A stretch of DNA of 64,000 nt from Spirosoma panaciterrae DSM 21099 (GTDB lineage: Bacteria > Bacteroidota > Bacteroidia > Cytophagales > Spirosomataceae), in assembly GCF_000374025.1 (NCBI RefSeq), contig NZ_KB893172.1:186001-250000 (forward strand), given 5' to 3'. A program made the translations under genes and the position numbers. Below are positions 36,078 through 57,017 of the stretch, piece by piece; within the stretch, counting starts at the first letter, position 1; each line of letters opens with the position of its first letter. Below the pieces are notes generated by a model. That model worked only from the letters and a program-made list of their open reading frames with translations. It ran no database searches and was not told where the DNA came from.

Positions 36078-36091
36078 CCAAGATTGTGCCA
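36078..36091 (-). promoter_or_regulatory. Candidate sigma-54-type promoter of the small-protein/DUF2911/P4 operon
   Basis: The minus strand reads TGGCACAATCTTGG. The -24 element TGGCAC is perfect; the -12 part is TTGG rather than TTGC and one base closer than canonical. It lies ~42 bases before the ATG at 36036 and 44 bases downstream of the first palindrome. A degenerate match, supported mainly by its parallel with the adaptor operon. Confidence 0.45.
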
Positions 36092-36134
36092 TCTAGTTAA
36101 GTTGCTGATTTGTAGTGTGTTAACCTGTTTGGGG

Positions 36135-36171
36135 TGTCCGCTATCGGACAGGTCTTGTACGGGGGTGGACA
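36135..36171. promoter_or_regulatory. Tandem palindromes, candidate activator binding sites (copy 2)
   Basis: TGTCCGCTATCGGACA (36135-36150) is a perfect TGTCCG-N4-CGGACA dyad. A second, imperfect dyad TGTACGGGGGTGGACA occupies 36156-36171. Their centres are 21 bp apart, two helical turns, as at 56981-57017. They lie upstream of the promoter-like element at 36078-36091, where an NtrC-type activator would bind. Confidence 0.65.
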
Positions 36172-36200
36172 GCAAGGTGGAGCATTGGGCGATGGGCCTG

Positions 36201-36257
36201 GGGCATAGGGTAAGGGGGTAGTTGTCGCAATGACCCTTTACCCTTACCCCCATGCCC
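36201..36257. repeat. Imperfect inverted repeat downstream of P5, GGGCATAGGG family
   Basis: GGGCATAGGGTAAGGG (36201-36216) pairs with CCCTTACCCCCATGCCC (36241-36257) with one bulge. It lies immediately past the P5 stop (36266-36268) and resembles the repeats at 32063, 46306 and 48850. Confidence 0.7.
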
Positions 36258-36265
36258 TATGCACT

Positions 36266-38665
36266 TCATTCCGTTTTAAGTGATTTTACGGGATTGACCA
36301 ACGCGGCTTTGATACTCTGGAAACTGACCGTTAAAAGGGCAATGCCAATGGCAAGTAACCCTGCCAGCACGAAGACCCACCACTGAATGTTGACCCGGTA
36401 GGCAAAATCTGCCAGCCACTGATTCATGGCCCACCACGCAATGGGACTGGCCAGCAGAATCGCGATTAGTACAGGCTTCAGGAAGTCTTTCGAGAGGAGG
36501 GTAACGATACTTGAAACGGATGCCCCCAGCACTTTCCGAACACCGATCTCTTTCGTCCGTTGTTCGGCCGTAAAAGCTGCCAGCCCAAACAGACCCAGGC
36601 AGGCAATCAGAATAGCCAGTGCCGAAAATACCAGTACCACCTGGGCTGTACGTTGCTCCGACCGATAGAGCGTATTCAGAAACTCATCGAGGAAGGTGTA
36701 TTCGAAAGCCGAATCGGGCATGTCTTTCTGGAAAACAGCTTCCAGCTGGCGCATGGTCTGGCTCAATTGGGCCGTACGGGTTTTAATCAGCAGATACGGA
36801 CGTGATTCGGTATCGGCATTATGGAAGGCGTAGGCACCAATCGGCGTATGCAGCGACTGAAAGTGAAAATCGTCGACAACACCGATGATTTCGGCCCGAT
36901 CCCAGCCAAATAGATTATGGGCTTTCTGGCCGATGGCTTTCTGTGGGGTAAGGCCCAGGTAGTCGACGGCTTTTTTGTTCAGAACAACCTGTACAGTGGT
37001 ATCTTTTTCATCTTTGATGGCTGGTAAGGTATGCCCGGCCAGAAGCTTTAGGCCCAGCACATCCATAAACTCCTTGCCAACCCGATTGGTCTGAATAGCC
37101 ATGCCTTCGCTGGAATTAGTCGAACTGCCGGACCGACTGAGAGTCCGGCCACTTGCCCCGCGTCCGGGAAAGGTTTGCGCCCGACAAACTTCGACCACGC
37201 TGCTCAGGCTTCGGTAATCGTTCATGAGGGCGTCGATCTGCGTTTTGTCCTTCGCGGCTGAGGTCATGACGGCCACAACCTGAGTTGGTTCATACCCCAG
37301 TTTCTGCGCCTGAATAAACTGCAACTGCTGATAGAAAATAAACGTACAAACCATCAGAATGACCGAGGCAGCAAACTGGATCACGACCAGCGACCGCCGG
37401 AACAAACCCGCGCCCGACTGGTTGCGGAAGGTGGTGCTGAGCAGGTATTTGGGCGAAAACGACGATAGGTAGAACGCGGGATACGAGCCCGCAATGAGCG
37501 TAATCAGTAAACCGATCAGCAACAGACCTACAATCACTTCGGGGGTCAGCAGGGCCGCGAAAGGGATTTGCTTGTCCGTCATCTGATTGAAAAGCGGAAG
37601 CCCCAGGGTAACCAGGCCAATCGCCAGGGTAAGTGCCAGGGTAACCATCAGGCCAGTTTCCAGATAAAAGCGTGTAATGAGATGTCCTGCCGATGCCCCA
37701 ACCGTTTTGATAACACCCACTTCCCGGAAACGAATCTGTGCTTTGGCCGTGGCCAGATTCATGTAGTTGATCGACGCAATCAGCAGAATGACGATGGCGA
37801 GAATAAGCAGAATTTTAACCTGCCGCAGGTCGCCGATGCGGGTGGTATTGGCATTGGTCATATCGGCCGAGTACAGGTGAACTTCGGTAAGCGGCTGGAG
37901 CCATATTTTGTACCATTGCTCGGCTTTGGGTACGTTTTTGTCCACAAGTCCCACCATCTGACCTTCGACCTGGGTTTCCTGGGCCTGCGGGCTGAGTAGC
38001 ACATAGGTTTCGAAACTGGCATTGCTCCAGCTTGGATTTTGAGCCCAGCGCACACTGCTGAACGAGCCGATCATGTCGGCATCCAGCGTCGAGGTGCCAG
38101 GAAAGTTTTTGTAGACCCCCGTTACTTCCAGCGTGTCTCGGTTATCGACGTACAGGATTTTTCCGACCGGGTTATCGCTGCCGAAATACCGTTCGGCCGT
38201 TGACTGGCTCAGCACCACCTTGTGCGGGCCGTCCAGCACCGTTTTGGGATTGCCTTTTGTCAGCTCAACGTCGAAGATATCGAACAGGCTTCCATCAGCC
38301 CAGTAAAAATTAGTTTCGGCAAATTTCTTATCGCCCGATTTGATGAAAGCCGTCTCACCGAAATTATGACGCAGCAAGCGGACCTGTTGCTCAACGGTGG
38401 GAATGTCGGCCTTAAGTGCCGGACCAACGGCATTGGGCGCGTTGGCCCAGTTCATGCTTTTGCCATCGAACGTGGCCGTTAATCCAACCCGGAAAATTCG
38501 GTCGGCTTTGCTGTGGTGTTTGTCGAACAGAAGTTCATCTTTCACATACAGCATAAGAAGCAGGGCAACGGCTAATCCGGTAGCCAGCCCAAGCAGGTTC
38601 AACGAAGTGAACAGGCGGTTTTTTAGTAATCCACGCCAGGCGATTTTGAGGTAGTTCTGGAGCAT
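36266..38665 (-). CDS. Double-FtsX ABC permease, array member P5
   Basis: 799 residues. The first coupling motif is altered, REVGVIKTVGAS (E315, with Ile where the others have Arg); the second is canonical, KEIGVRKVLGAS (E706). The following helix reads LLSKDFLKPV, with Pro replacing Leu. The last ~19 codons match P6 at 56 of 58 bases, suggesting recent conversion. C-terminus NPVKSLKTE. Start ATG 38665, in the shared leader context TTTGCCCTATG (minus strand) seen in slightly varied form for P5-P9. Confidence 0.9.
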   Translation of the reverse strand: MLQNYLKIAWRGLLKNRLFTSLNLLGLATGLAVALLLMLYVKDELLFDKHHSKADRIFRVGLTATFDGKSMNWANAPNAVGPALKADIPTVEQQVRLLRHNFGETAFIKSGDKKFAETNFYWADGSLFDIFDVELTKGNPKTVLDGPHKVVLSQSTAERYFGSDNPVGKILYVDNRDTLEVTGVYKNFPGTSTLDADMIGSFSSVRWAQNPSWSNASFETYVLLSPQAQETQVEGQMVGLVDKNVPKAEQWYKIWLQPLTEVHLYSADMTNANTTRIGDLRQVKILLILAIVILLIASINYMNLATAKAQIRFREVGVIKTVGASAGHLITRFYLETGLMVTLALTLAIGLVTLGLPLFNQMTDKQIPFAALLTPEVIVGLLLIGLLITLIAGSYPAFYLSSFSPKYLLSTTFRNQSGAGLFRRSLVVIQFAASVILMVCTFIFYQQLQFIQAQKLGYEPTQVVAVMTSAAKDKTQIDALMNDYRSLSSVVEVCRAQTFPGRGASGRTLSRSGSSTNSSEGMAIQTNRVGKEFMDVLGLKLLAGHTLPAIKDEKDTTVQVVLNKKAVDYLGLTPQKAIGQKAHNLFGWDRAEIIGVVDDFHFQSLHTPIGAYAFHNADTESRPYLLIKTRTAQLSQTMRQLEAVFQKDMPDSAFEYTFLDEFLNTLYRSEQRTAQVVLVFSALAILIACLGLFGLAAFTAEQRTKEIGVRKVLGASVSSIVTLLSKDFLKPVLIAILLASPIAWWAMNQWLADFAYRVNIQWWVFVLAGLLAIGIALLTVSFQSIKAALVNPVKSLKTE

Positions 38666-38701
38666 AGGGCAAAGAGGAAGGGGCAGAGAGCTTGGGGTAA
38701 G

Positions 38702-38763
38702 GGGAAGAAAGGGAGTAAGGGAAAAAAAGTTGGACCCGAAAATCCTTTCCTCCCTTTCTTCCC
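38702..38763. repeat. Inverted repeat between P5 and P6, GGGAAGAAAGGG family
   Basis: The left arm 38702-38722 (GGGAAGAAAGGGAGTAAGGG...) pairs with 38743-38763 at 19 of 21 positions around a 20-base loop. Together with flanking purine-rich DNA it fills the 108-base spacer. Confidence 0.85.
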
Positions 38764-38773
38764 GCTCCTCCCT

Positions 38774-41191
38774 CTATTCCGTTTTAAGTGATTTCACGGG
38801 ATTGACCAACGCAGCTTTGATACTCTGGAAACTTACAGTAAGTAACGCAATGAATAGCACTAAGGCAAATGGTAGGGCAAACAGCCACCACTGGATCGTT
38901 GTTCGGAACGCATACCCCTGGAGCCATTGACTGATCGCATACCAGGCCAACGGCGTTGCCACGACAAAGGCAATCAAAATCAAGATGGCAAATTCGCGGT
39001 AGAGCATCTGCACAATCTCAGCGACCGAAGCCCCCAGTACCTTCCGAATACCGATTTCTTTGGTGCGTTGCGCAGTAGTGAACGAAGCCAGTCCGAACAA
39101 TCCCAGGCAGGCTACCAGAATGGCCAGTCCCGTAAACAAGCCGAATACCTGCCCAAATCGCTGATCGGCTCGGTACTGTTCGTTAAAGCGTTCATCCAGA
39201 AACGAATATTCGAACGGATTGCCGGGGAAAAAGTGATTCCACTCGGTCCGAATGGTGGTGATGGTGCTGTTGAGTTCGCTGGAAGCCAGTTTGATGGAGA
39301 AATAGCCTCGCACATCGGGAATCAGGCGGAGAATGAGTGGTTCGTAGGCATCCCGTAACGACTGCTGATGAAAATTGTCCGTAACCCCGACCAGCGTAAA
39401 GGTTTCGCCCCAAAACTCAATCTGTTTGCCAATGGCATCCTCGGGCCGGTTGAAACCCAGTTGTTGCGCAGCTTTTTTGTTGAAGATGAGTGCCTTGGGG
39501 TCGCTGCCAAACTCTTTGGCGAAGTTGCGTCCGGCCAGTAATTTCAGATCGAACGTTTTCAGGAAATCATAGTCGACGCCAATAATCCGATATTGTTGAC
39601 TTTTGCTTTCGTCGGTTCCCTTGAGCCGGATACCGCCCGCATTCCAGTCGGAAGCCTGACCTGGTACTACCGTCGAAGCCGCAATGGACTGAATACCGGG
39701 ACGACGCAGGAGTTCATCTTTAAACGCCAGCATCTGTCGCATAAAGGTAGAGTCGGTTTTGACGATGGGTGGGTTAATGACCAGCGTCTGGTCGATGTTC
39801 AGGCCCAGGCTTTGCGCCCGCATGAATTGAATCTGATGAAAAACGGCCAGCGTACCGACCAGCAAAAACAGGGAAGCCGCAAACTGGAACACCACCAGCG
39901 ATTTACGCAGTAAAATACCCTGCGATGAGGTACTAACCTTCCCTTTCAGCACCGCCACGGGCTTAAATCCTGATAGCACAAACGCCGGATACAGTCCCGA
40001 AAGAAAAGCCCCGATGAGAAACAGTCCGATCAGAGGCAACCAGAAGGTGGGGCTCACTAATAGGGAGAACGACATCTGCTGGCCCGATACCTGATTGAAT
40101 AGCGGGATCGATACGGCAACAATCCCCAAAGCCAAAACCACCGCCAGGCCATTGAGTAAGACCGATTCGGTCATGAACTGCCGAATGAGCTGACCACGTA
40201 GCGACCCTACCGCTTTCCGAACCCCCACTTCTTTGGCCCGGTTGATAGCGCGTGCCGTGGCCAGATTGATGTAGTTGACCCAGGCAATGACAACGATGAA
40301 AAACGCAATGCCCAGCAGTAGATAGACCGTGTTGCCGTCGCCATTGGGTTCGGCTTCTTCCATAAAATGAGAATACAAATGGATGTCGCGCAGGGGCTGA
40401 AGTTTATAGACCGCATCGGCATCGTATTTCTTCAGTTCAGCCCCAATAGTTTTCTGAATATAGGGCGCAAATTTGGCTTCAAGGGCGTTGGGGTTAGTAT
40501 CGGGCCGAAGCAGCAGATACGATAGCGCACCGTCCCACATCCAGGCCTGGTCGGGGTTATTGTCCTTGCCAACCTCCTTGATGAAGGTAACGTGCGGAAT
40601 TAGCAGATCGGCATGGAGGTGTGTGTTGGCAGGCATATCCTGATACACACCCGTAACCTTAACGGCCCGCTCCTGATTGATGCGAATGGTTTTGCCCATC
40701 GGATTTTCGTTGCCGAACAACCGATGCGCGACCGATTCCGACAAAGCAACGGTATTCGGTTCGGCCAGTATGGTATTCACATCACCAGCAATCAGCGGAT
40801 AGGAAAAAATCTTGAAGAACGATTCGCTGGCAATAAAGACCCGCTCAACCTTCAGACTTTTCTCGCCATAGTCGGCAATGACTGCCCGACGTTTCAGCAC
40901 TTTTACATAATCCTCAACCTCCCCAAAGGCCGCCTTAAACGAGTTGCCAGCCGCCTGAGCACCACCCGCCCATTGCGTACTGAGTTTGCCCTTGTCGTAC
41001 CGATCCTGCAGAACACGGTAAATCCGGTTGCCCCTGGTATGAAAATCATCATAACTCAGTTCAAACGAGACATATTGCAGAATGAGCACACAGGCGGCAA
41101 TGCCGATGGCCAGTCCCAGAATATTGATAGCCGAAAAGGCTTTGTTGCGGACCAGATTCCGCCAGGCGATTTTGAAATAATTTTGAAGCAT
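38774..41191 (-). CDS. Double-FtsX ABC permease, array member P6
   Basis: 805 residues. Coupling motifs KEVGVRKAVGS (E321) and KEIGIRKVLGAS (E712). After the second motif it reads VAEIVQMLYREFAILILIAFVV instead of the LLSKDFLKLV helix of most members, so the C-terminal bundle has a distinct start. It nevertheless ends NPVKSLKTE with DNA nearly identical to P5. The first periplasmic domain is one of the least similar to the neighbours (KVLKRRAVIADYGEKSLKV). Start ATG 41191 (leader TTTGCCTTATG). Confidence 0.9.
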   Translation of the reverse strand: MLQNYFKIAWRNLVRNKAFSAINILGLAIGIAACVLILQYVSFELSYDDFHTRGNRIYRVLQDRYDKGKLSTQWAGGAQAAGNSFKAAFGEVEDYVKVLKRRAVIADYGEKSLKVERVFIASESFFKIFSYPLIAGDVNTILAEPNTVALSESVAHRLFGNENPMGKTIRINQERAVKVTGVYQDMPANTHLHADLLIPHVTFIKEVGKDNNPDQAWMWDGALSYLLLRPDTNPNALEAKFAPYIQKTIGAELKKYDADAVYKLQPLRDIHLYSHFMEEAEPNGDGNTVYLLLGIAFFIVVIAWVNYINLATARAINRAKEVGVRKAVGSLRGQLIRQFMTESVLLNGLAVVLALGIVAVSIPLFNQVSGQQMSFSLLVSPTFWLPLIGLFLIGAFLSGLYPAFVLSGFKPVAVLKGKVSTSSQGILLRKSLVVFQFAASLFLLVGTLAVFHQIQFMRAQSLGLNIDQTLVINPPIVKTDSTFMRQMLAFKDELLRRPGIQSIAASTVVPGQASDWNAGGIRLKGTDESKSQQYRIIGVDYDFLKTFDLKLLAGRNFAKEFGSDPKALIFNKKAAQQLGFNRPEDAIGKQIEFWGETFTLVGVTDNFHQQSLRDAYEPLILRLIPDVRGYFSIKLASSELNSTITTIRTEWNHFFPGNPFEYSFLDERFNEQYRADQRFGQVFGLFTGLAILVACLGLFGLASFTTAQRTKEIGIRKVLGASVAEIVQMLYREFAILILIAFVVATPLAWYAISQWLQGYAFRTTIQWWLFALPFALVLFIALLTVSFQSIKAALVNPVKSLKTE

Positions 41192-41200
41192 AAGGCAAAG

Positions 41201-41286
41201 GGAGGAGCGGGAGGAAGGGGAGAAGAGGGACGAAAGGGTATTTGGAAAATCCTTCCTCCCTTTTGCCCCATTCCTCCCGCTCCTCC
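41201..41286. repeat. Inverted repeat between P6 and P7, GGAGGAGCGGGAGG family
   Basis: GGAGGAGCGGGAGGAAGGGG (41201-41220) pairs with 41266-41286 with one bulge; the loop is 45 bases. The right arm ends 7 bases before the P7 stop, and the left arm starts 9 bases from the P6 start codon. Confidence 0.88.
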
Positions 41287-41293
41287 ATTATAT

Positions 41294-43732
41294 TTATTCA
41301 CTCCGCAAAGACGTAATCGGATTCGCCAACGCTGCTTTGATCGACTGAAAACTTACAGTAAGTACAGCAATACCTACGGCCAGCAGTCCGGCTACCACGA
41401 ACATCCACCATTCAACATCGATTTTGTAGGCAAACTCCTGGAGCCAGCGATTCATTACATACCAGGCAATGGGCGATGCTATCACAATGGCGATCAGGAC
41501 CAGTTTCAGGAAATCTTTCGAGAGTAAGGCAACCAGCCCTGGTGTTGACGCTCCCAGTGCTTTCCGAATGCCGATTTCTTTGGTCCGCAACCGGATTACG
41601 TACATCGCCAGCCCCAACAAGCCCATGCAGGCGATGAAAATGGCGAGCAGGGCAAACACCCCAAAAATCCGCTGGGCTACCTGTTCCGATTTATACAAGT
41701 CGCTCCAGTCGGCCGTTAGGTATGAGTAATGAAAAGGCTGATCGGGTAGGTAGTGTTTCCAGACCTGCTCAATCTGGCCAACAACGGTGCCTGGATTATC
41801 GGCCCGGACCCGGACGGCCATCTGATTGTCGGTTCGGCGGAAAATCCGGTTGTTCAGAATAAATAGCGGGCTAATGCGTTGGTGCAGTGATCCGAAGTGG
41901 AAATTGCGGACTACACCCACGATGGTATATGTGACGGGTGGGCCATTCTGCTGGGTGAAGTTGTCGGGGCTGGTAATCTGTTTGCCAATCGGGTCGAAAA
42001 GTCCCATCTGCCGGGCGGCTTCTTCATTGAGAATCACCGAAAGCGAATCGTCGAACTGTCGGCTGAATGGGCGTCCGGTCAGTAGGGTCATCTGCATGGT
42101 CTGGAGATACTGTTCATCCACCACACAACCTTTTCCGGTCACGGTCTCGTTGTCGCCATTCTTACGGAAGGTTATACCGAAAAAGCCTTCTTCGCCCGGA
42201 GCGCTGCTGGTACCGCCCACACTGGCCACGCCCGACAGTTTGGCAACTTCCTGTTTGAAGGCTTCGGTATTGTTGCCCAGAAAAAAGGCGCTTTTGATCG
42301 TAACGACGGATTCTTTGGTAAAGCCCAGCTCTTTCTGCTGAATAAAATTCAACTGGCTGAACACCACGATGGTGCTGACGATCAGGAGTACCGAAATGGC
42401 AAACTGAAATACGACCAGTCCATTTCGGAGCCAGTGTCCCTGTTTGGTTGATGAAAACCTGCCTTTCAGCACTTTGATTGGCTCAAACGCCGATAAAACT
42501 CCGGCCGGATAACTGCCAGCCAATAAGCCTACGGCAACAGCGCCCCCGATCAACAAGGGTAATGTTTCCCAGCGTACCAGCGAGCTTAACGTGAGTGACT
42601 TACTTGCTAAGGTATTAAATGGCGTAAGCAGGGCAGAAACCAGTAATCCGGCAATGATCAGACTAAATAAGCTCAGTAAAACGGATTCAGTCAGGAATTG
42701 GGCGGCCAGTTGTTGTTTAGTTGACCCCAACGATTTACGAATCCCGACTTCCCGCGCCCGCTCCGACGACCGAGCCGTGGCCAGATTCATGAAATTGATA
42801 CAGGCGATCAGCAGCACAAAAGCGGCAATGATCGAGAAAATAGACACCAGCGACCGACTGCCATTGGGCTGGTATTCGGCCTCCAGGTGTGAGTCGAGGT
42901 GAATGGAAGGAACAGGTTGCAGGAAATAATAATACCCGTTTCCAGCTTTCACGTAATCGCGATACGAAACCCCGAAAGTGCGTTCGATTTCGCCAGCCGC
43001 GTACTTCTCGACGACAGCAGGCAGCTTGGCCTGGACAACCTCCCGGCGTGTGTTTGGTCGCAGAAGCAGGTACGTATGGGCGGCAAAACTGATATGATTG
43101 GGCTGCTCGGCCAGTGGGAACCCGCGCGTCGACGACAGGAAATTATAGGAAAAATGGGCATTGTGCGTAGGATCTGGACAAATGCCCGTCACTTCGAGTT
43201 TCGGCCCTTGCACAATCTCAACTATCTTCCCGATGGGATTTGTTGAGCCAAACAACCGTTTGGCGGTGCTTTCGGTCAGCACAACCGTATTCGGTCGGCT
43301 TAGCGCCTTCCCGGCCTGCCCCCGCAGTAGCGGAATCTGGAAGACCTGAAAAAATGTAGAATCAACCGCTAGAAACCCTTTTTCTTCGAGTGTTCGCCCG
43401 TTCAGTTTGAGTAAGGTAGGCTGGTTGTTGCCGAAGGTAAATACCCGTGTCGTCTGCTCAATTTCCGGTATTTCCTTCTTCACCGACTGTGCGTAGGAAG
43501 GCGGAATGATCGCATATTTTGTGCTGCGGCCCGGATAGATCCGTTCCAGCGCCATGCGGTAGATACGGTTACCGTTGGGCCAGTGTCGGTCATAACTCAG
43601 TTCATCCGTCACATACAGAACGATCAGCAGGCAACAGGCCATGCCAATCGCTAAACCGGCCATATTAATGGCTGTGTTGACTTTGTGCTTCGCCAGATTG
43701 CGAAGAGCGATTTTGAGGTAGTTACGAAGCAT
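41294..43732 (-). CDS. Double-FtsX ABC permease, array member P7
   Basis: 812 residues. Coupling motifs REVGIRKSLGST (E328) and KEIGIRKALGAS (E719), the latter preceded by LRT instead of QRT and followed by TPGLVALLSKDFLKLV. The C-terminus differs, NPITSLRSE. N-terminal helix INMAGLAIGMACCLLIVLYV. Start ATG 43732 (leader TCTGCCCCATG). Both flanking spacers are inverted repeats. Confidence 0.9.
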   Translation of the reverse strand: MLRNYLKIALRNLAKHKVNTAINMAGLAIGMACCLLIVLYVTDELSYDRHWPNGNRIYRMALERIYPGRSTKYAIIPPSYAQSVKKEIPEIEQTTRVFTFGNNQPTLLKLNGRTLEEKGFLAVDSTFFQVFQIPLLRGQAGKALSRPNTVVLTESTAKRLFGSTNPIGKIVEIVQGPKLEVTGICPDPTHNAHFSYNFLSSTRGFPLAEQPNHISFAAHTYLLLRPNTRREVVQAKLPAVVEKYAAGEIERTFGVSYRDYVKAGNGYYYFLQPVPSIHLDSHLEAEYQPNGSRSLVSIFSIIAAFVLLIACINFMNLATARSSERAREVGIRKSLGSTKQQLAAQFLTESVLLSLFSLIIAGLLVSALLTPFNTLASKSLTLSSLVRWETLPLLIGGAVAVGLLAGSYPAGVLSAFEPIKVLKGRFSSTKQGHWLRNGLVVFQFAISVLLIVSTIVVFSQLNFIQQKELGFTKESVVTIKSAFFLGNNTEAFKQEVAKLSGVASVGGTSSAPGEEGFFGITFRKNGDNETVTGKGCVVDEQYLQTMQMTLLTGRPFSRQFDDSLSVILNEEAARQMGLFDPIGKQITSPDNFTQQNGPPVTYTIVGVVRNFHFGSLHQRISPLFILNNRIFRRTDNQMAVRVRADNPGTVVGQIEQVWKHYLPDQPFHYSYLTADWSDLYKSEQVAQRIFGVFALLAIFIACMGLLGLAMYVIRLRTKEIGIRKALGASTPGLVALLSKDFLKLVLIAIVIASPIAWYVMNRWLQEFAYKIDVEWWMFVVAGLLAVGIAVLTVSFQSIKAALANPITSLRSE

Positions 43733-43741
43733 GGGGCAGAG

Positions 43742-43886
43742 GGGAGGAGAGGGAGTAAGGGGAAGAAAGGGAGGAGGGGGAGTAAGGGGAAGAGAGGGAG
43801 TAAGGGGAAGAGAGGGAGGAAAGGATTTATGGGGTCCAACTTCTTTTCCCTTTCTTCCCCCTCCTCCCCTTACTCCCTCTCCTCCC
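43742..43886. repeat. Inverted repeat with shuffled purine-rich modules between P7 and P8
   Basis: The left arm 43742-43762 (GGGAGGAGAGGGAGTAAGGG...) is perfectly complementary to 43866-43886. The interior repeats the same modules in other orders: AGTAAGGGGAAGA three times, GGGAGGAGGGGG once, then the pyrimidine-rich mirror. The right arm ends 2 bases before the P8 stop. It is the longest of the spacer elements. Confidence 0.88.
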
Positions 43887-43888
43887 TC

Positions 43889-46309: not shown

Positions 46310-46393
46310 GGGGCAAAGGGGTAAGGGCAGAGGGTAAGGGGCATAGGACAAAGGGGTAGGTTTCAGAGTGGCCCTTACCCCTTTGCCCTATGC
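46306..46393. repeat. Inverted repeat whose stem contains the P8 start codon
   Basis: GCATGGGGCAAAGGGGTAAG... (46306-46328) is complementary at 22 of 23 positions to 46371-46393. The CAT at 46307-46309 is the P8 start codon on the minus strand, so the RNA stem pairs AUG with CAU. The right arm lies 3 bases after the P9 stop (46397-46399). A further copy of the module (GGGGCATAGGACAAAGGGG) fills the loop. Confidence 0.88.
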
Positions 46394-46396
46394 CAT

Positions 46397-48835: not shown

Positions 48836-48849
48836 AGGACAGAGGGATA

Positions 48850-48922
48850 ATGGCATAGGGTTCGGGGCGTTGGGTATGGTGTCGGAGTAACCCCATGCCC
48901 AATGCCCCGAACCCTATGCCAT
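48850..48922. repeat. 30-bp inverted repeat between P9 and P10
   Basis: The left arm 48850-48879 (ATGGCATAGGGTTCGGGGCG...) pairs with 48893-48922 at 28 of 30 positions around a 13-base loop. The right arm directly abuts the P10 stop codon (48923-48925). Same GGCATAGGG family as 46306 and 36201, but with a GTTCGGGGC core. Confidence 0.92.
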
Positions 48923-51340
48923 TCATTCCGTTTTCAGTGATTTAACTGGATTCATCAAGGCGGCTTTAACACTCTGGAAACTAACGGTAGCAAAGGCAAT
49001 AATCACGGCAAGCAGCCCGGTCAGCGCAAAAACCCACCATTCGATATCGATTTTATACGCAAAGTCGGAAAGCCATTTATCCATCACCCACCAGGCAATT
49101 GGGCTGGCGATCAGGATGGAGGCAACAACCAGTTTCAGGAAATCTTTTGACAATAACGTGACGATGCTGGTGACGGAAGCCCCCAGCACTTTGCGAACGC
49201 CAATTTCTTTAGTCCGTTGCTGGATGGTCAGCAGGGCTATGGCAAACAGACCCATGCAGGACAGGAGAATGGCAATACCGGCCGCCGATGAGAAAATTGT
49301 GGCCAGCCGTTGCTCGCGTCGATACCAGCGTTGGGTGTTCTCGTCCAGAAACGACCCGATGAATTCCTGTTTGGGGGCAATGCTTTTCCAGGTAGCCTTG
49401 ATGGTTTCCATAGCCCCCGCCAGATTTTGCGGATTCACCCGGATCAGGATGTAGTGAATTGGGTTGTTGGCCTGCATCTGGAGCGTAATAGGCCGGGCTT
49501 CCTGGTGTAATGAATACAGATTAAAGTCCGACACCACGCCCACAATCTGGAATTCTTTATTATCGGGCTTGATAAACTTGCCTACCGGGTTTTTCTCGCC
49601 CAGAGCTTTGGCCATGCTTTGGGTGATCAGGATCGACGAACTTGAATCGGTGCTGAAACGGGTACTAAAGTCGCGACCTTGCAGAAGTTTGATGCCCATC
49701 GTTTTCAGATAGTCGGTATCGATTCGGAGCCAGTCGCAGGCTACATCCCGCTGCCCGTACCGGAAACCATAGACCATTCGCGACGAACCGCCATCCAGCC
49801 CGGCCCCAATGTTGACTCCCGAACCCGATACGGCTACGATATTGGGCTGATTGGCCAGCCGGGTTCGCATTGTTTTGAGTACATCGGTGCCATTTAATTC
49901 ATTGCCCACCGGAACGCTGATGACCTGCTCTTTATCCAGACCCATCGGTTTTTGCTGGAGGTAGCTGATTTGCTGACGGATAATGAGCGTACAAACAATG
50001 AGCAGGCAGGCAATCGTAAACTGGGTTACAATCAGTGAATTGCGCAACAAGCCCGGACGACTCACCTTCAGGGTTCCTTTCAGCACCTCTACGGCATTGA
50101 ACCGAGTAACGAACCAGGACGGGTAGCCACCGGCAATTAATGTGATCAATAAAAAGCTCAATCCGGTCACGGCCAAAATGGACGGTGTCAGGAAGTCGGC
50201 CAGAGTCAGGCTACTTTTGAACAATCGGTTGAAAGTAGGCAGTAGGCCGTATGCCATGCCTAATCCAATGAATAGGGCAATGGCGCATACCAATACCGTT
50301 TCGCCCCAGATCTGCCCAAACAGTTGCCCCCGTTTTGCCCCCAGCGATTTACGGACCCCTACTTCACGGGCTCGTGTGAGCGATTGGGCAATGGTCAGGT
50401 TGATAAAATTGATGCAGGCAATGGCCAGAATAAACAGACCGACCATCAGCAGCGTAACTACATACGTCCGACTAATACCCATACCCTGGGTGGTTTCGGT
50501 ATCGAAATGGACGTTGAGCAGCGGCTGAAACAGCAAACTTTGCTGAAAACCTAATTCGTTTTTGGGCCAACCCTGCTTTTGCCGCTCCTGAATATCGGAA
50601 GCAAAATATTTGTCCATAAACGCCTGTGTCCGTCGCTGAAGCGTTTGTGGATCAGTGCCGGGTTTGAGCTTGATATACACATGGTGGTTTCCGTGGTCCC
50701 AGCGGCTTTTAAACTCCTGATAATCGCCAGCGTTTTCACTACGAATCAGCGCATCGTATTCGAACGTCGAGTTTTTTGGGGCATCACTTAGCACACCTGT
50801 TACGGTGAAAGCCTGCCAGGCGTTGTTGAATCGTAGCTGGAGCGGTTTGCCGATGGGGTCTTCGTTGCCGAAAATCTCACGGGCCATTTTTTCGCTGATG
50901 ACAATGTCGCTCAGGTTGCTCATGGCCGTTTGTACATTGCCCTTCAGGAGTGGAAATGTAAACATCGTCAAAAAATCGGCGTCGGCCATCCGCACATCTT
51001 TGTTGTACGTCTGGTCGTTTCGCCGGACGCTGGCACTCCGATCAAACCAGCGGGTCACGCCTTCGATTTCAGGAAATTCGGCTTTGAGCGATGGCGCAAT
51101 TGGGTACGGCATTGTTGCCCCTTTGTCGGATGAGCCATCGCGGTTCGACGACAGGAAGTAAAGCCGGAAAATTCGGTTGGCATCGGCATGAAACCGATCG
51201 TACGATAGTTCAAAAGCCGCTGTCAGAAACAACAGCACGCCCGTACCAAACGCTACCGACAGGCCGATGATGTTGATGAAGGTATGCGTCCGGTTTTTCC
51301 AGAGGGTGCGGAAGGCGACTTTCAGGTAATTGCGGAACAT
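48923..51340 (-). CDS. Double-FtsX ABC permease, array member P10
   Basis: 805 residues. Coupling motifs REVGVRKSLGAK (E326) and KEIGVRKVLGAS (E712, followed by VTSIVTLLSKDFLKLV). The N-terminal helix is atypical, INIIGLSVAFGTGVLLFLTA. C-terminus NPVKSLKTE. Start ATG 51340. Its leader differs from P5-P9: it is AT-rich and shared with the divergent Uma2 gene only 34 bases away, so P10 either has a compact promoter there or is weakly expressed. Confidence 0.9.
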   Translation of the reverse strand: MFRNYLKVAFRTLWKNRTHTFINIIGLSVAFGTGVLLFLTAAFELSYDRFHADANRIFRLYFLSSNRDGSSDKGATMPYPIAPSLKAEFPEIEGVTRWFDRSASVRRNDQTYNKDVRMADADFLTMFTFPLLKGNVQTAMSNLSDIVISEKMAREIFGNEDPIGKPLQLRFNNAWQAFTVTGVLSDAPKNSTFEYDALIRSENAGDYQEFKSRWDHGNHHVYIKLKPGTDPQTLQRRTQAFMDKYFASDIQERQKQGWPKNELGFQQSLLFQPLLNVHFDTETTQGMGISRTYVVTLLMVGLFILAIACINFINLTIAQSLTRAREVGVRKSLGAKRGQLFGQIWGETVLVCAIALFIGLGMAYGLLPTFNRLFKSSLTLADFLTPSILAVTGLSFLLITLIAGGYPSWFVTRFNAVEVLKGTLKVSRPGLLRNSLIVTQFTIACLLIVCTLIIRQQISYLQQKPMGLDKEQVISVPVGNELNGTDVLKTMRTRLANQPNIVAVSGSGVNIGAGLDGGSSRMVYGFRYGQRDVACDWLRIDTDYLKTMGIKLLQGRDFSTRFSTDSSSSILITQSMAKALGEKNPVGKFIKPDNKEFQIVGVVSDFNLYSLHQEARPITLQMQANNPIHYILIRVNPQNLAGAMETIKATWKSIAPKQEFIGSFLDENTQRWYRREQRLATIFSSAAGIAILLSCMGLFAIALLTIQQRTKEIGVRKVLGASVTSIVTLLSKDFLKLVVASILIASPIAWWVMDKWLSDFAYKIDIEWWVFALTGLLAVIIAFATVSFQSVKAALMNPVKSLKTE

Positions 51341-51358
51341 AATTTTTTAGTAAATTTG
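51330..51358 (+). promoter_or_regulatory. Bacteroidota-type promoter for the Uma2-like gene
   Basis: TAAATTTG (51351-51358) matches TAnnTTTG exactly. TTG at 51330-51332, inside the start of the P10 coding region, gives an 18-base spacer. The ATG is 17 bases downstream of the box. Confidence 0.6.
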
Positions 51359-51374
51359 GTAAAAATCGTTACAT

Positions 51375-51818
51375 ATGTATTTTCCAACCACAAACCCACT
51401 GGTACTTGCTAACGAAGATCAGGGCGTATGGGCACCCGCCGATCATCAGCGTATTATCTCCAAGTTGACCATTGGTTTGGGTGTTCTATACCATCATAAA
51501 AAAGCAATCCAATTGGAACCCCTGCCAGAGACGATGCTTGATGATACGAAAGCGAGTCCGGTGCCCGATCTATCACTGGTTGATACTACAACTGATGAAA
51601 CACCAATCATTATTGAGGTCTGCAAAACGAATGGACAAAAGGGTGATATTCAAAAAATTGTACAACTTATTGATGATAACCTGTATGGCATTCGTGAAGG
51701 ATTTATCTATAACTACAAAACGCAGCAGTGGTACCGCTACCGCTTTGGCGATGGTGGCCTCATTGCTGAATCATCCTTCTCCGAAATCCTCCAACTGGAT
51801 CTGAACTCCTTTCTCTGA
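51375..51818 (+). CDS. Uma2-like (DUF820) PD-(D/E)XK-fold protein
   Basis: 147 residues. VPDLSLVD, then a short spacer and IIIEVCKTNGQKGDIQKI, match the PD...ExK pattern of the Uma2 restriction-endonuclease-like family: the Asp of PD, and Glu/Lys of EVCK. The C-terminus (QWYRYRFGDGG...) is also typical. Cellular role is unknown; the family is most abundant in cyanobacteria and found sporadically in Bacteroidota. It is an opposite-strand passenger between P10 and P11, with its own promoter and a 38-bp inverted repeat at its 3' end, consistent with insertion of a self-contained cassette. Confidence 0.75.
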   Translation: MYFPTTNPLVLANEDQGVWAPADHQRIISKLTIGLGVLYHHKKAIQLEPLPETMLDDTKASPVPDLSLVDTTTDETPIIIEVCKTNGQKGDIQKIVQLIDDNLYGIREGFIYNYKTQQWYRYRFGDGGLIAESSFSEILQLDLNSFL

Positions 51819-51919
51819 ACCTGGATTTATGTGATTTAACTGACCGACTTTGATGATGCCTTCTTCGAAGGCTGTTAAAAAATCAAAGTCGGTCAGTTAA
51901 ATCACATAAATCCAGGTTC
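51817..51919. repeat. Perfect 38-bp inverted repeat with nested hairpin
   Basis: The left arm 51817-51854 (GAACCTGGATTTATGTGATT...) is exactly complementary to 51882-51919. The loop has its own small hairpin, GCCTTCTTCGAAGGC (51858-51872). The left arm starts within the Uma2 stop codon and the right arm ends 3 bases before the P11 stop, so the whole convergent gap is the hairpin. Longest perfect stem in the window. Confidence 0.95.
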
Positions 51920-51922
51920 GGA

Positions 51923-54283
51923 TTACTCACTTCGCAAACTCGTTACCGGATTCATGGTGGCGGCCTTTATGCTTTGATAACTGACCGTCAGAAAGGCAAT
52001 TACAACAGCCAGTATACCCGCAGCCCCAAATAGCCACCAGCTTAGTGGCGTCTGGTAGGCAAAGGTATCGAGCCACGTACTCAACGCCCACCACGCCAGG
52101 GGCGAAGCCAGCACCAGCGCAATAACCACCAGTTTCAGAAAGTCTTTCGATAACAGCCCCACGATATTCGATACGCTGGCTCCCAACACTTTTCGAACAC
52201 CGATTTCCTTAGTCCGCTGCTCAGCCGTGAAGGCCGCCAGGGCAAACAGGCCCAGGCACGAAATCAGAATGGCCAGTGCGCCGAAGTAATTGATTAGCTT
52301 ATTGACGACCTGCTCAGACCGATAGAGACTCTCATATTCTTCGTCCAGGAAATGGTAGTTGAACGGATAGTTCGGGTTAAATTCTTTGGATAGTTGTTCC
52401 AGATCGGCAATAGCCTGCTGGGTTTGGCCAGCGTGTGTTTTCACCAGTAAGTAGCTGGTATTTCGGGTGTCGAAACAGAGGATCAGGGGGGTGATGGCCT
52501 GGTGCAGCGAATTGATATGGAAATCTTTCATCAGCCCAATTACCTGGCCTTTGCCCGGCCAGAAACTAACCTCTTTGCCTACCGGATTTTTAACCCCCAT
52601 CAGTTTGGCAGCTGCTTCGTTGACGAGGTAGCTTGTGGAATCGGCAAGGCTTCCGTTTCGGAAATCACGGCCATCCAGCAACTTGATGTTGAGTGTTTTG
52701 ATGAAGTCACTTCCTACAAACATGCAGGAAACATTGGTTTCCAGTTTAGGATCTTTTCCGGGCCAGGTCAGATCGCCCGATGAACTCTGTATATTCACGG
52801 GCAACGACATGGTGGTGGTAGCCGAGGCAACAGCCGGCTTTCGCATAACTTCCTGCCGGAACGCTTCTACCTTTTTGGGCTGAGCAATTTCGCCCTCCAG
52901 CGGTACGTAAACCACATTTTCGCGATCAAGACCCAGGTTTTTGGTGCGCAGATAATTCATTTGTTTCCCGATCGCCAGCATACCGACAATCAGGAAGATC
53001 GAAAGCGAGAACTGAAAAACAACAAGCACACGTCGGAAAAGGGCCGGGCCTGAGCCAAACTGTAAGCGCCCTTTTAGCGTCTTGATCGGCTGTAACGACG
53101 ACAGGAATAGGGCTGGATAACTGCCCGATAAAAAACCAGTGATCAGTACCAGCCCGATTAGGATAAGCCAAAGAGCGGGTTCGGCAATGTTGAGCGTCAA
53201 CTGTTTACTAAATACCTCGTTGAACGTCGATAATACACTCCAGACCATGCCTATTGCCAGGATAGCCGCCAGTAAACTGGTTAAAATTGACTCGCTCAGA
53301 AACTGACCGACGAGTGCCGAGCGCATGGCGCCCACTACTTTCCGAACCCCTACTTCCTTCGCTCGTGTGGCCGAGCGGGCCGTGGCCAGATTCATGAAAT
53401 TGATGCAGGCGATCAGCAGTATAAATAGCGCCACAATGGAGAAAACAGCGACGTACCCAATCCGACCCCCAACGCTCTTGCCATTTTTATATTCGCTGTA
53501 CAGGTGCAGGTCCGTGATGGGTTGCAAGGTAGGGCGGGCCGTTTCGAAGTTTTTTCCGGCAAAGCGCGGATAAATACGGGACAGGGCCGCCTGAGCTTGT
53601 GCAACAGTCGTATGAGGCTTCAGTCGGACGTATGTGTAGAAGGAATTGTTGCCCCACTTTTTCATCCAGTCCTGCTCCTGCACTTTCCAGTTCACCAACC
53701 AGTCGAATTGCAGGGTAGAATTGGCCGGGAGATTGTCAATGACAGCTCCGACGACGTAAAATTTGTCGTTGTCTAACTGCAATGTTTTACCAACTGCCTG
53801 GCCATTCGGGAAAAATTTCTCGGCTACCTTACGGGTAATGACAATCTGGTTGGTCTGATGCAGGGCAGCTTTGGGATTGCCATACAGGGTGGGTAAATCG
53901 AATACACCGAAGAAGTCGTCGGTGGCAAAGTGCCCTTTTTCCTTGGCCGCTTTTTCGCCGACTTTAATGAGCAGTTCCGGTCCGTAATTGATCTTGGTGA
54001 CCGAAGCTATTTCGGGGACATCCTGGGCAATCGCTTCCTGCAAAGGGCCGGGAGTCACCGAGTTGGTCACCGTGTCGCCTGCCTGGGTTGGAAAATTAAC
54101 TCGTACAAAATGGATGGCCTCTGCGTTGGGCAGGAAACGATCGTAACTCAGTTCGTCGCGGACCCACAGACCAATCAGCAGACTACAAGCCATGCCCAGC
54201 GCCAGCCCAAATACATTGATAGACGAGTAGAGTTTGTGTTTCAGCAAACTCCGAACGGCGATTTTTAGGTAATTGCGAAGCAT
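51923..54283 (-). CDS. Double-FtsX ABC permease, array member P11 (ATPase-proximal)
   Basis: 786 residues, the shortest member. Coupling motifs KEVGVRKVVGAM (E310) and KEIGVRKVLGAS (E693, followed by VSNIVGLLSKDFLKLV). C-terminus NPVTSLRSE. It lies 58 bases downstream of the ATPase gene on the same strand, the classic adaptor-ATPase-permease order of MacAB-type operons, and so is the best candidate for the cognate partner. A GC-rich hairpin in the short gap could lower its expression relative to the ATPase. Confidence 0.92.
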   Translation of the reverse strand: MLRNYLKIAVRSLLKHKLYSSINVFGLALGMACSLLIGLWVRDELSYDRFLPNAEAIHFVRVNFPTQAGDTVTNSVTPGPLQEAIAQDVPEIASVTKINYGPELLIKVGEKAAKEKGHFATDDFFGVFDLPTLYGNPKAALHQTNQIVITRKVAEKFFPNGQAVGKTLQLDNDKFYVVGAVIDNLPANSTLQFDWLVNWKVQEQDWMKKWGNNSFYTYVRLKPHTTVAQAQAALSRIYPRFAGKNFETARPTLQPITDLHLYSEYKNGKSVGGRIGYVAVFSIVALFILLIACINFMNLATARSATRAKEVGVRKVVGAMRSALVGQFLSESILTSLLAAILAIGMVWSVLSTFNEVFSKQLTLNIAEPALWLILIGLVLITGFLSGSYPALFLSSLQPIKTLKGRLQFGSGPALFRRVLVVFQFSLSIFLIVGMLAIGKQMNYLRTKNLGLDRENVVYVPLEGEIAQPKKVEAFRQEVMRKPAVASATTTMSLPVNIQSSSGDLTWPGKDPKLETNVSCMFVGSDFIKTLNIKLLDGRDFRNGSLADSTSYLVNEAAAKLMGVKNPVGKEVSFWPGKGQVIGLMKDFHINSLHQAITPLILCFDTRNTSYLLVKTHAGQTQQAIADLEQLSKEFNPNYPFNYHFLDEEYESLYRSEQVVNKLINYFGALAILISCLGLFALAAFTAEQRTKEIGVRKVLGASVSNIVGLLSKDFLKLVVIALVLASPLAWWALSTWLDTFAYQTPLSWWLFGAAGILAVVIAFLTVSYQSIKAATMNPVTSLRSE

Positions 54284-54306
54284 AGAAAGTCTGGGTGGCC
54301 TTTGTT

Positions 54307-54339: not shown

Positions 54340-54341
54340 GA

Positions 54342-55019
54342 TTATACGTGGAAATTCTCCGTCACCACTTTACCATCGAAGAGGTTGACGATGCGATGGG
54401 CAAAACCAGCATCGTAAGGCGAGTGGGTTACCATGATGATGGTGGTGCCTTCTTCGTTCAGTTCGCCCAGAAGCTTCATGACCTCTTCGCCATTTTTCGA
54501 GTCGAGGTTCCCCGTCGGTTCATCGGCCAGGATCAGCTTGGGTTTGGCGACAACAGCGCGGGCAATGGCGGTACGTTGCTGCTGACCACCGGAGAGCTGC
54601 TGCGGAAAGTGGTTGCGCCGGTGCATGATGCTCATCCGTTCCAACGCTTCTTCTACGCGCTTTTTCCGTTCATCGGCCGGGGTTTTCAGGTACAACAGAG
54701 GGAGTTCGACGTTTTCATAAACGGTTAGTTCGTCGATCAGGTTAAAGCTCTGGAACACAAAGCCAATTGAGCCTTTTCGGAGCTGAGCCCGTTGACGTTC
54801 GGTCATTTTGGCAACCTCTGTGCCATAGAAGTTATACTCACCTTCGCTCGGATTGTCCAGTAAGCCGAGGATGTTGAGCAAGGTCGACTTGCCACAACCC
54901 GAAGGGCCCATGATGGCTACGAATTCGCCATCTTTAACTTCCATGTTTATCCCATTGAGGGCGGTGGTTTCTACTTCTTCGGTAGCGAAGAGTTTTTGAA
55001 GGTTAATTGTCTGGATCAT
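54342..55019 (-). CDS. MacB/LolD-type ABC transporter ATPase, stand-alone
   Basis: Cytoplasmic ATPase of 225 residues, the only ABC ATPase in the window. Walker A G38PSGCGKST46, Q-loop near FVFQ (Q90), signature LSGGQ (142-146), Walker B LILADE (162-167) and H-loop H199. All catalytic elements are intact. It is fused to no membrane domain, unlike E. coli MacB. With the adaptor gene upstream and P11 downstream it forms a complete MacAB-like set, and it is the natural energy source for the ten other permeases. The leader is pyrimidine-rich, like those of P4-P9. A four-helix-bundle gene on the other strand separates it from the adaptor. Confidence 0.95.
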   Translation of the reverse strand: MIQTINLQKLFATEEVETTALNGINMEVKDGEFVAIMGPSGCGKSTLLNILGLLDNPSEGEYNFYGTEVAKMTERQRAQLRKGSIGFVFQSFNLIDELTVYENVELPLLYLKTPADERKKRVEEALERMSIMHRRNHFPQQLSGGQQQRTAIARAVVAKPKLILADEPTGNLDSKNGEEVMKLLGELNEEGTTIIMVTHSPYDAGFAHRIVNLFDGKVVTENFHV

Positions 55020-55114
55020 TGTTTTTTAAGGAGGAAAGGGAGGAAAGGGAAGATGGGACAAAAGGGAAAAACAAATACATATATTTAGTCCGTACTTACC
55101 TAACTCCTGATTTC

Positions 55115-55477
55115 ATGGCTAAAGTTGAAAAGTTTGAAGACCTGTTAGTTTGGCAAAAGGGCTTAGCCCAGGCAATTGATGTATACAAATTACTTGCTGA
55201 TTGCAAAGATTATAGTTTACGTGACCAAATGCGTCGTTCATCCGTTTCTGTTCCTTCAAATGTGGCAGAAGGATTTGAGCGACATACGAACAAAGAGTTC
55301 ATTCGATTTCTACGTATTGCCAAAGGCTCTAATGGCGAATTACGAACGCAAATCCACTTAGCGATTGGGGTAGGTATACTCTCATCCAAATCTGGTGATG
55401 AACTGCTTGCAAAGAGTCGAATCATATCGTCGATGTTGCAAAATTTAATCAAAACGAGGATGGAGAAATTTAACTAG
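55115..55477 (+). CDS. Four-helix-bundle (23S rRNA intervening-sequence type) protein
   Basis: 120 residues from ATG 55115 (MAKVEKFEDLLVWQKGLAQA); an earlier in-frame start near 55007 lies in low-complexity DNA overlapping the ATPase start and is rejected. FEDLLVWQKG, RDQMRRSSVSVPSNVAEGF and FLRIAKGSNGELRTQ are diagnostic of the S23/IVP-like family, found both inside split 23S rRNA genes and as free-standing genes. Its function is unknown. A weak -7 box (TATATTTA, 55080-55087) precedes it. It sits between adaptor and ATPase on the opposite strand, so the adaptor transcript would cross it in antisense. Confidence 0.88.
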   Translation: MAKVEKFEDLLVWQKGLAQAIDVYKLLADCKDYSLRDQMRRSSVSVPSNVAEGFERHTNKEFIRFLRIAKGSNGELRTQIHLAIGVGILSSKSGDELLAKSRIISSMLQNLIKTRMEKFN

Positions 55478-55480
55478 AGT

Positions 55481-55580
55481 GGAAGAGGGGGAAATAAAGG
55501 GATGAGAGGGAGAAAGTATTTTTGTCAAAATCTTATATGCCTGTCTTCCCTCTCGTCCCTTTATTCCCCCTCCTCCCTTT
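55481..55580. repeat. Inverted repeat between the four-helix-bundle gene and adaptor
   Basis: The purine-rich left arm (55481-55514, GGAAGAGGGGGAAATAAAGG...) pairs imperfectly with the pyrimidine-rich 55545-55580. The AATAAAGGGA core is also the unit of the tandem repeat at 24316-24451. The right arm ends 5 bases before the adaptor stop. A second purine tract lies at 55028-55070 on the other side of the gene. Confidence 0.8.
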
Positions 55581-55585
55581 TCTCC

Positions 55586-56833
55586 TTAAAATTCCAACAC
55601 CTCATTATCACCAAAATTTTCATAAGAACTTGTAATGACTTGCTCGCCCGGTTCGAGGCCACTCAGCACTTCGTAGAACTCTGGATTTTTGCGACCCAGC
55701 GTGATTGATCGTTTAACGGCCCGTTTGCCCGACTTGTCGACGACATACACCCAGTTGCCCCCTGTGTCAGAAAAGAAACCGCCAACAGGCAGTAGTGTCG
55801 CCTTAGCGGCTTTACCTAACTCCAACTGAATCGGCGACGACTGACCCCGCTTGATCCCTTCTGGCGTGCCTTTCGGGAAAATCATATCGACTTCGAACCG
55901 ACCATTTTTTACTTCGGGATACACCCGGCTAATTTCCAGTTCATGGTTTTTGCCGTTGAATTCAAACGAACCTTTCAGACCCGAAAATACCCGGCTGATG
56001 TAGTGCTCATCAATACCCACCCGCATTTTAAAGCCATTCAGGTCATCGATCTGGCCAATATTCTGGCCACGGTTGATGTTCGACCCAACTTCTACATCGA
56101 TGCTTGACAACTGCCCCGAAACGGGCGCTTTCACGACGAGGTTATCCAGTGTCTGTTGCCAAAGAGCGACATTTCGCTGTGTACGTTGCAAGGTGCCTTC
56201 CAATTGTTTGATTTGCGCCTTGGCATTTTCTTCCTGATACTTCTGCGTTTCGATTTCAATAGTCCGCTGGCTCATCAGCCGATCATAGGCCCGCTTTGCT
56301 TTCAGATAATCTTCTTCCGAAACGACTTTATCTTTATATAGCTTCTCCTGGCGTTCGTAGGTGTCTTTGGCCTGAGCGATTTGGGCATCAACATCGGCCA
56401 GGGTTTTGCGCAGGGTAAACCGTTCGATCTGAATCCGCTGGCGGGTATTTTGCAGGTCGTTGACAAGTCGGTTGGCTTCCGTTTCTGATTGTAGGAAGCT
56501 CAGTTTGAGGCTCTGGTTTTCCAGTTTGAGCAGTACTTCGCCTTTCTGAACCATGTTGCCACCTTCAACCAGTTTCTGGGTCACATAGCCCCCTTCGATG
56601 GCATCGAGCCGGATGGTTTTCAGCGGTTGAACAACACCCGTAACAGCAATGAAATCCTCAAACGGGCCCGTAGTGACATCCGATACGGTTATTTTATCTT
56701 TTTCAACATTCAACTTCGAACGTCGGTCGGCAAAGAAAAACGTGTAGGCTAGCAAGCCTACCAGAAGGGCACCACCACCAAAAATGGCAATGCGTTGTGT
56801 TGTCCAAAATCGTTTAGGTAAGACGCGATCCAT
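55586..56833 (-). CDS. MacA/HlyD-family periplasmic adaptor
   Basis: 415 residues anchored by one N-terminal helix (about 16-36, FGGGALLVGLLAYTFFFA). Domain order: first membrane-proximal strand, half lipoyl domain (TGVVQPLKTIRLDAIEGGYV, VQKGEVLLKLEN), a long coiled-coil hairpin (about 105-235), the second half-lipoyl (VVKAPVSGQLSSIDVEVGSNI), beta-barrel (KMRVGIDEHYI), and a C-terminal membrane-proximal domain (VYVVDKSGKRAVKRSITLG). In MacAB systems such adaptors connect the permease to an outer-membrane TolC-type channel; no TolC gene is in the window. First gene of the array transcript, preceded by the palindrome pair and promoter-like element. Confidence 0.94.
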   Translation of the reverse strand: MDRVLPKRFWTTQRIAIFGGGALLVGLLAYTFFFADRRSKLNVEKDKITVSDVTTGPFEDFIAVTGVVQPLKTIRLDAIEGGYVTQKLVEGGNMVQKGEVLLKLENQSLKLSFLQSETEANRLVNDLQNTRQRIQIERFTLRKTLADVDAQIAQAKDTYERQEKLYKDKVVSEEDYLKAKRAYDRLMSQRTIEIETQKYQEENAKAQIKQLEGTLQRTQRNVALWQQTLDNLVVKAPVSGQLSSIDVEVGSNINRGQNIGQIDDLNGFKMRVGIDEHYISRVFSGLKGSFEFNGKNHELEISRVYPEVKNGRFEVDMIFPKGTPEGIKRGQSSPIQLELGKAAKATLLPVGGFFSDTGGNWVYVVDKSGKRAVKRSITLGRKNPEFYEVLSGLEPGEQVITSSYENFGDNEVLEF

Positions 56834-56908
56834 TGTTACTTAATTGTCAATGAGTGAATTAGTTAATGAGCGATTCAATTCGCCGATCCCATTGGCTACT
56901 ACATCCTG

Positions 56909-56925
56909 TGCCAATAGTCATGCCA
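56909..56925 (-). promoter_or_regulatory. Candidate sigma-54-type promoter of the adaptor operon
   Basis: The minus strand reads TGGCATGACTATTGGCA: -24 TGGCATG (one change from TGGCACG), 4-base spacer, -12 TTGG (consensus TTGC). Spacing from the -24 GG to the conserved -12 G is canonical. Transcript start would be near 56898, ~65 bases before the ATG. Confidence 0.5.
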
Positions 56926-56980
56926 GATGGAATGGGGTCTTGATAATCAATAGTTTAACTTTTGTAGAACATAGCCGCTT

Positions 56981-57017
56981 GTCCGCTTTCGGACGGGTTT
57001 TGTCCGCTTTTGGGAGC
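56981..57017. promoter_or_regulatory. Tandem palindromes, candidate activator binding sites (copy 1)
   Basis: TGTCCGCTTTCGGACG (56981-56996) and TGTCCGCTTTTGGGAG (57002-57017): the first is a nearly perfect TGTCCG-N4-CGGACA dyad, the second keeps the left half-site. Centres are 21 bp apart, identical to the pair at 36135-36171. They lie 56 bases upstream of the -24 element, a typical enhancer position for an NtrC-type activator. Confidence 0.7.

Follow-up and report, generated by a model that had tools for sequence, protein, structure and literature searches.

Two promoter regions in the window, the whole 64-kb stretch of Spirosoma DNA analysed here, carry the same pair of dyads with starts 21 bp apart, and such pairs recur across the genome. 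Judging from sequence, and with a probability of about 0.87, we read the 21-bp dyad pair as the enhancer of the NtrC-type activator encoded at 58949-60340, which would drive a sigma-54 regulon genome-wide. The sites look like landing places for a single switch protein, which would activate dozens of dispersed membrane-pump genes jointly.

Dyad pairs in the window and in the genome

An earlier sequence-only reading had claimed two dyad pairs with 21-bp phasing, and both are present, at 36135-36171 and 56980-57016; the first had been placed exactly and the second one base off. Both lie upstream of minus-strand genes. Before the run encoding a small protein, a DUF2911 protein and a permease, the proximal dyad TGTCCGCTATCGGACA (36135-36150, minus strand, seen in the sequence and by the pair model described below) is followed 21 bp away by the distal dyad TGTACGGGGGTGGACA (36156-36171, minus strand, from the sequence). 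At the HlyD promoter the proximal dyad is TGTCCGCTTTCGGACG (56980-56995, minus strand, sequence and pair model), with a weak distal dyad TGTCCGCTTTTGGGAG, again 21 bp off (57001-57016, minus strand, from the sequence). A sigma-54 -24/-12 element, TGGCATGACTATTG, matches the strict pattern TGG[CT]N7TTG at 56912-56925 (minus strand), 54 nt from the HlyD pair, and a -24/-12-like element with a weaker -12, TGGCACAATCTTGG, lies at 36078-36091 (minus strand), 43 nt from the other pair as counted by eye; the 44-56 bases given earlier were thus about right. Of the two promoters, that at 36135 is the weaker, failing the strict pattern and agreeing with the sigma-54 -24/-12 pattern in part only, and its distance falls about one turn below the usual 53. 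Another genome of the genus (L094) has TGGCATGATCGTGG at 52 nt in this place, ahead of a gene that starts in the same way.

By itself the single dyad is not enriched, either in the window (10 matches with up to two mismatches against 8.76 expected) or genome-wide (24 places with up to one mismatch against 35 in a reversed-pattern control), and counting single dyads is therefore useless alone. The non-random feature is pairing together with position: a partner dyad stands at 20-22 bp in 22 of the 24 places, while C2:88432 has half a partner and C46:221137 none (these assignments were made partly by eye). A sequence-only pair model was trained on 22 pairs from these places, after dropping C46:221137, which has no partner and lies beside runs of N, and counting once two places that are halves of one pair. 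The two window sites, both in the training set, score E values of 1.7e-8 and 2.7e-7, and the model finds no further pair in the window up to E 10. In the 8.13-Mb genome at least 28 pair sites score E<0.2, a lower bound because 150 of 1685 first-look candidates were scored; C17:110501 (E 1.1, without element) was excluded from the 28. Six lie beyond the training set (C1:141262, C1:182090, C2:256091, C28:20367, C40:7510 and C40:14969), and each of the six is flanked on one side by TGG[CT]N7TTG, 52-64 nt away.

The genome-wide scan for pairs that the sequence-only reading had proposed thus gave at least 28 sites, many before permease genes and one before HlyD, which is not a random placement; its "local regulon" was too narrow, the sites being spread over the genome and the module recurring across many Bacteroidota. 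Adding to the 28 own sites the 29 best matches of relatives (two of them, L084 and L087, belonging to other genera), another 60 of the listed sites in the genus and 20 beyond it gives 137 distinct sites, with a dyad spacing of 21 bp in 115, 22 bp in 17 and 20 bp in 5. The search in relatives used stricter filters and scored 108 candidates per genome; from outside the genus, 20 of 23 loci were kept, L169, L170 and L172 being duplicates.

A sigma-54 element in two positions

The strict sigma-54 element, scored 40-68 nt off the pair, was found on exactly one side of 26/28 own sites, 20/29 of the best matches of relatives, 50/60 further sites of the genus and 12/20 outside it, and on both sides of none of the 137. 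Two of the out-of-genus misses, L171 and L184, are mis-centred yet were counted as misses, the others being L168, L173, L174, L176, L177 and L180. The pattern occurs 37 times in the 64 kb, both strands taken together, so that chance would supply it at about 1.7% per site. As it was read off the 22 training sites it is partly circular for those, and the independent test is provided by the six other own sites and the sites of relatives. A looser pattern, CGGACA-N42-72-TGGCN7TTG, was hardly above its reversed control over 59 genomes (own genome, 24 against 18).

Within 140 nt of the pair there are 114 strict matches; 61 start at 50-55 nt, 47 at 61-66, one at 43 and five elsewhere, and none at 56-60. 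These starts define two classes about one helical turn apart (called here 53 and 63), to which 26 of the 28 own sites belong, the 36135 site being among the two exceptions. No strict element was found at 29 of the 137 sites. Nine of these, all best matches, were read by eye: seven have TGGCAYGA at 52 nt, the -12 being TGG in six of them and TAG in one, L090 has TGGCACGAGCTTGG at 33 nt, and no element was found in L087.

Scoring with a generic sigma-54 consensus against shuffles missed several elements, because it expects TTGC at -12 whereas here TTTG prevails, ending the -12 in 95 of 109 strict elements; it was replaced by the strict pattern. An rpoN gene is present in the genome.

The two classes also differ in their spacers. 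Sites of class 63 (such as L017, L034:9353, L092, L110, L208 and L217) often hold a terminator-like hairpin between enhancer and -24, with an A-rich stem and a T-rich end, and spacers folding at -8 kcal/mol or below number 33/47 in this class (mean Z -2.2) against 19/61 in class 53 (mean Z -0.6). A palindrome resembling TGATTATCA with up to two mismatches, at offset 31 from the pair, occurs in 23/61 class-53 spacers against 1/47 of the other class; whether it might be the site of a bending protein or of a second regulator is a question the sequence raises. At L160:2948-3007 (G003) two overlapping model matches on opposite strands make three dyads in a row, with a -24-like element at just 33 nt.

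Genes behind the sites

Behind the 36135 promoter, all on the minus strand, come a 64-aa small protein (35842-36036, start chosen by eye), a DUF2911/TPR protein (34700-35848) and a long MacB_PCD permease (32149-34590). A relative of the small protein is the nearest recognised gene at 3 of the 60 further sites of relatives. The other promoter precedes a HlyD-type periplasmic adaptor (55586-56833) and a stand-alone ABC ATPase (54342-55019), which we call the hub, and behind these a single same-strand run comprises seven long MacB_PCD permeases (36266-54283; three recognised by Pfam, all seven by the genome search), again all on the minus strand.

Over the 28 own sites the nearest recognised gene is a permease or its PadR in 18, with PadR first in 11, and a DUF3244-like small exported protein in four. 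HlyD, an ABC-TolC-HlyD operon, DUF4097, the small protein/DUF2911 run and a 209-aa protein each occur once; the one site without a recognised gene is followed by a protein of the Pfam Beta-lactamase family. The genome encodes 53 long MacB_PCD permeases (frames of 788-1160 aa), most with two MacB_PCD matches, and of these 18 lie directly behind a site, 27 more in same-strand runs behind one and 8 in neither position. The resulting 45/53 comes from a same-strand chaining rule with steps of up to 4.5 kb and describes predicted, not mapped, operons. No ABC_tran domain is present in the seven long permeases scanned out of the 53. ATPases at least 40% like the hub ATPase are encoded at nine places, of which the hub and C2:87642 fall in the putative regulon. 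Per genome, the number of sites follows that of MacB first-look candidates, used here because scoring stopped at 42, with rho 0.94 over 36 genomes of the genus, or 0.72 after genome size. Not every local permease seems to belong: the upstream gaps of three MacB-type permeases in the window (19229-21628, 21795-24212 and 27422-29842) contain neither a convincing pair nor a strict sigma-54 element.

The likely activator, a partner kinase and their conserved neighbourhood

The regulator is most likely the NtrC-type response regulator at 58949-60340 (plus strand; REC, sigma-54 AAA+ and Fis-type HTH by Pfam), together with a sensor kinase with PAS and HATPase domains that starts at 62830 on the plus strand and runs off the window at 63999 (450 aa in all). 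The activator is the one the sequence-only reading had pointed to next door; of the window's two kinases, it is the one starting at 62830, not that at 30076, that is conserved as its partner. This kinase matches PAS_8 and HATPase_c with no HisKA match, and lies 2.5 kb from the regulator. The loop of the activator reads GAFTDA, not GAFTGA, as it does in nearly all relatives matched by the loop pattern (one has GSFTDA); the pattern found no match in L142, L145 and L149. HlyD and the activator are separated by a glycosyltransferase-like gene, and the activator and the kinase by other genes, including, before an acyltransferase, two small ORFs at 60344-60878, the one of 113 aa looking by eye like a RelE/ParE-type toxin and the one of 74 aa like its partner.

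Up to 4 kb on either side of activator relatives was analysed in 80 named loci (the best 80 of 578, with 49-89% identity). A kinase relative lies within 4 kb in 71, HlyD in 52, ABC in 49 and FtsX in 46, and 64 loci have at least one of these three transporter genes; in each of the 52, HlyD diverges from the activator. The pair model matches 29 of these best 80 loci (692,824 bases), every match scoring E<0.1 and the range from 0.1 to 1 being empty. Each of the 29 sites lies upstream of the divergent HlyD by less than 300 bp, in a space that makes up 2.3% of the bases. A best-pair search in 51 of the 52 divergent-HlyD loci beat at least 95% of 60 shuffles in 41 and did not in 10. The half-site drifts among groups (TGTCC, TGTTC, TGAAC, GTATC) with the spacing constant over the 20-22 bp tried, and by eye the recognition helix SRxALYRR tends to go with TGTCC and TRASLYRR with TGTTC or TGAAC, L261 being one of the exceptions. 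Transporter genes accompany the activator-kinase pair in many Bacteroidota genera; alone or with HlyD, the pair also occurs in MAG contigs labelled KSB1 (one, with HlyD), Latescibacterota (three) and Calditrichia (one).

Sites at E<=0.01 occur in all 36 Spirosoma genomes and in 7 of 23 others, and an activator orthologue of at least 54% identity in all 36 plus G037, G039, G040, G045, G052, G054 and G058 (in G008 and G012 it is split by contig ends). Sites are thus found in 42/43 genomes with the orthologue against 1/16 without (Fisher 6e-12) or, by genus, in 6/7 against 1/16 (p=4.6e-4), counts that are not independent, as many of the compared sites are orthologous. G037 has the orthologue with no site found, and G036 a site with just a 52% partial relative; in G047 (51%) and G055 (47%) an activator sits in the same gene neighbourhood with no pair-model match up to E 0.1. 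The 54% line is our choice: with G036, G047 and G055 counted as orthologues, the figures become 43/46 with and 0/13 without. The sigma-54/NtrC interpretation already given by the sequence-only reading is supported by the sites beyond the training set, the spacing, this co-occurrence over 59 genomes and the position in the 80 loci.

Alternative explanations

The genome has eight strong PF00158 genes (8 of 12 matches), so that another activator might bind the pair, above all the one compared individually as a rival, a 45%-identical paralogue at C15:132346 that has the same GAFTDA loop and a similar recognition helix and adjoins a cluster of short MacB-type and ABC genes. This paralogue is, however, unnecessary, since G008, G024, G039, G045, G052, G054 and G058 all have sites and no orthologue of it (best matches of 40-47%, or none in G008), and insufficient, since G047 has a 61% orthologue and no site and G036 a 72% orthologue and one site. 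We regard this explanation as improbable, though less so than those that follow. PadR proteins bind dyads with TGT/ACA ends, and the dyads might be operators of the PadR repressors whose genes come first at 11 of the 28 own sites; the other 17 have something else first, HlyD, DUF3244, DUF4097, ABC-TolC-HlyD and lone permeases among them, genera in which the conserved neighbouring gene is that of the activator also have the pair at HlyD, and a repressor site would need no fixed helical distance to the -24, all of which makes this very unlikely.

The TTTG that so often ends the -12 would also suit sigma-A promoters of the TAnnTTTG type, the dyads then belonging to an ordinary activator. Against this, TAnn precedes TTTG in just 2 of the 109 strict elements, the TGG of the -24, itself invariant by selection, is followed by C in 80% and A in 77%, and the regulator carries a sigma-54 AAA+ domain; we give this idea slightly less credit still. 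That the two window sites resemble each other by chance would fit the background level of single dyads, but the 28 pairs with phased sigma-54 elements, six of them beyond the training set, and the position conserved across genera leave it hardly any probability and bear out the earlier judgement on this point.

Proposed mechanism

In our preferred reading, an enhancer for the activator at 58949-60340, two activator dimers would bind the two dyads, which lie two helical turns apart, so that both would face the same side of the DNA. Kinase 62830 would phosphorylate the activator, and the phosphorylated protein would assemble at the pair and contact RNA polymerase-sigma-54 at the -24/-12 element, which as a rule occupies either of two positions separated by about one helical turn. 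According to PMC7057263, enhancer-binding proteins attach 100-150 bp upstream, form oligomers and use the GAFTGA loop to remodel the closed complex of sigma-54; the present enhancer lies unusually close to its promoter, and the helical phasing could stem from that. The regulon would switch on the HlyD-ABC hub and about 45 long MacB/FtsX permeases without their own ATPase, along with the ABC-TolC-HlyD operon and small exported proteins, as an envelope or efflux response, and, to judge by its targets, the signal may be envelope damage or antimicrobials. From gene content, we infer that the permeases may share an ATPase. More speculatively, and with considerable doubt, the whole could be a hub-and-spoke efflux array in which one sigma-54 two-component switch makes a shared ATPase/adaptor hub and some 45 exchangeable double-size permeases together, from promoters set in helical-turn steps (about 43/53/63), class 63, mostly PadR operons, often having a hairpin against read-through across which the activator would loop.

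Relation to known systems

The kind of system, a sigma-54 two-component regulon, is known; the member appears to be new. Enhancer-binding regulons of the NtrBC, ZraSR and NifA type likewise have a REC-AAA+-Fis HTH activator, paired upstream dyads, a -24/-12 promoter and a kinase, and the TGT-N10-ACA dyad is as in the NifA site. The present system differs from them in its targets (a large permease family), its GAFTDA loop and its gap between pair and promoter, which is as a rule 50-66 nt in two quantised classes. In F. psychrophilum a sigma-54 (SM4) regulon has been mapped, with Bacteroidota -24/-12 promoters and an envelope stress theme; the selection of targets printed in the accessible part of that work comprises chaperones, gliding, lipoproteins and others, with no FtsX permease and no activator assigned (PMC9723704). 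Sigma-54 promoters at COG0577 FtsX-type permeases of Bacteroidia were predicted earlier, statistically and by COG, and the accessible text gives no activator, enhancer or gene module for those permeases (PMC12316311). In the portions available of the open-access literature searched we found no description of the activator, enhancer, spacing rule, permease scale or conserved module, and no role for the 53-copy permease family. That family now has a candidate regulator, kinase, binding motif and target list, and its function becomes testable with one mutant. The recurrence of the activator-kinase pair in many Bacteroidota genera and in the KSB1, Latescibacterota and Calditrichia contigs suggests that it may be a widespread envelope-response switch.

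MacAB-TolC efflux shares with the predicted regulon a HlyD adaptor, MacB-type permease domains and a TolC-type channel, whereas the permeases scanned here are twice as large and have no ATPase domain, and the few ATPases are encoded separately. The duplicated orphan permeases of acidobacteria, another phylum, resemble them by description only: many double-FtsX permeases without ATPase, with PadR neighbours. Two further arrangements were seen. The paralogous activator at G000:C15:132346-137115 has short permeases of the MacB type and an ABC ATPase with 53% likeness to that of the hub as neighbours, and perhaps belongs to another system built on the same plan. At L068:4718-8161 an 1148-aa protein, with its own site, combines a double MacB/FtsX permease with an AraC-type HTH.
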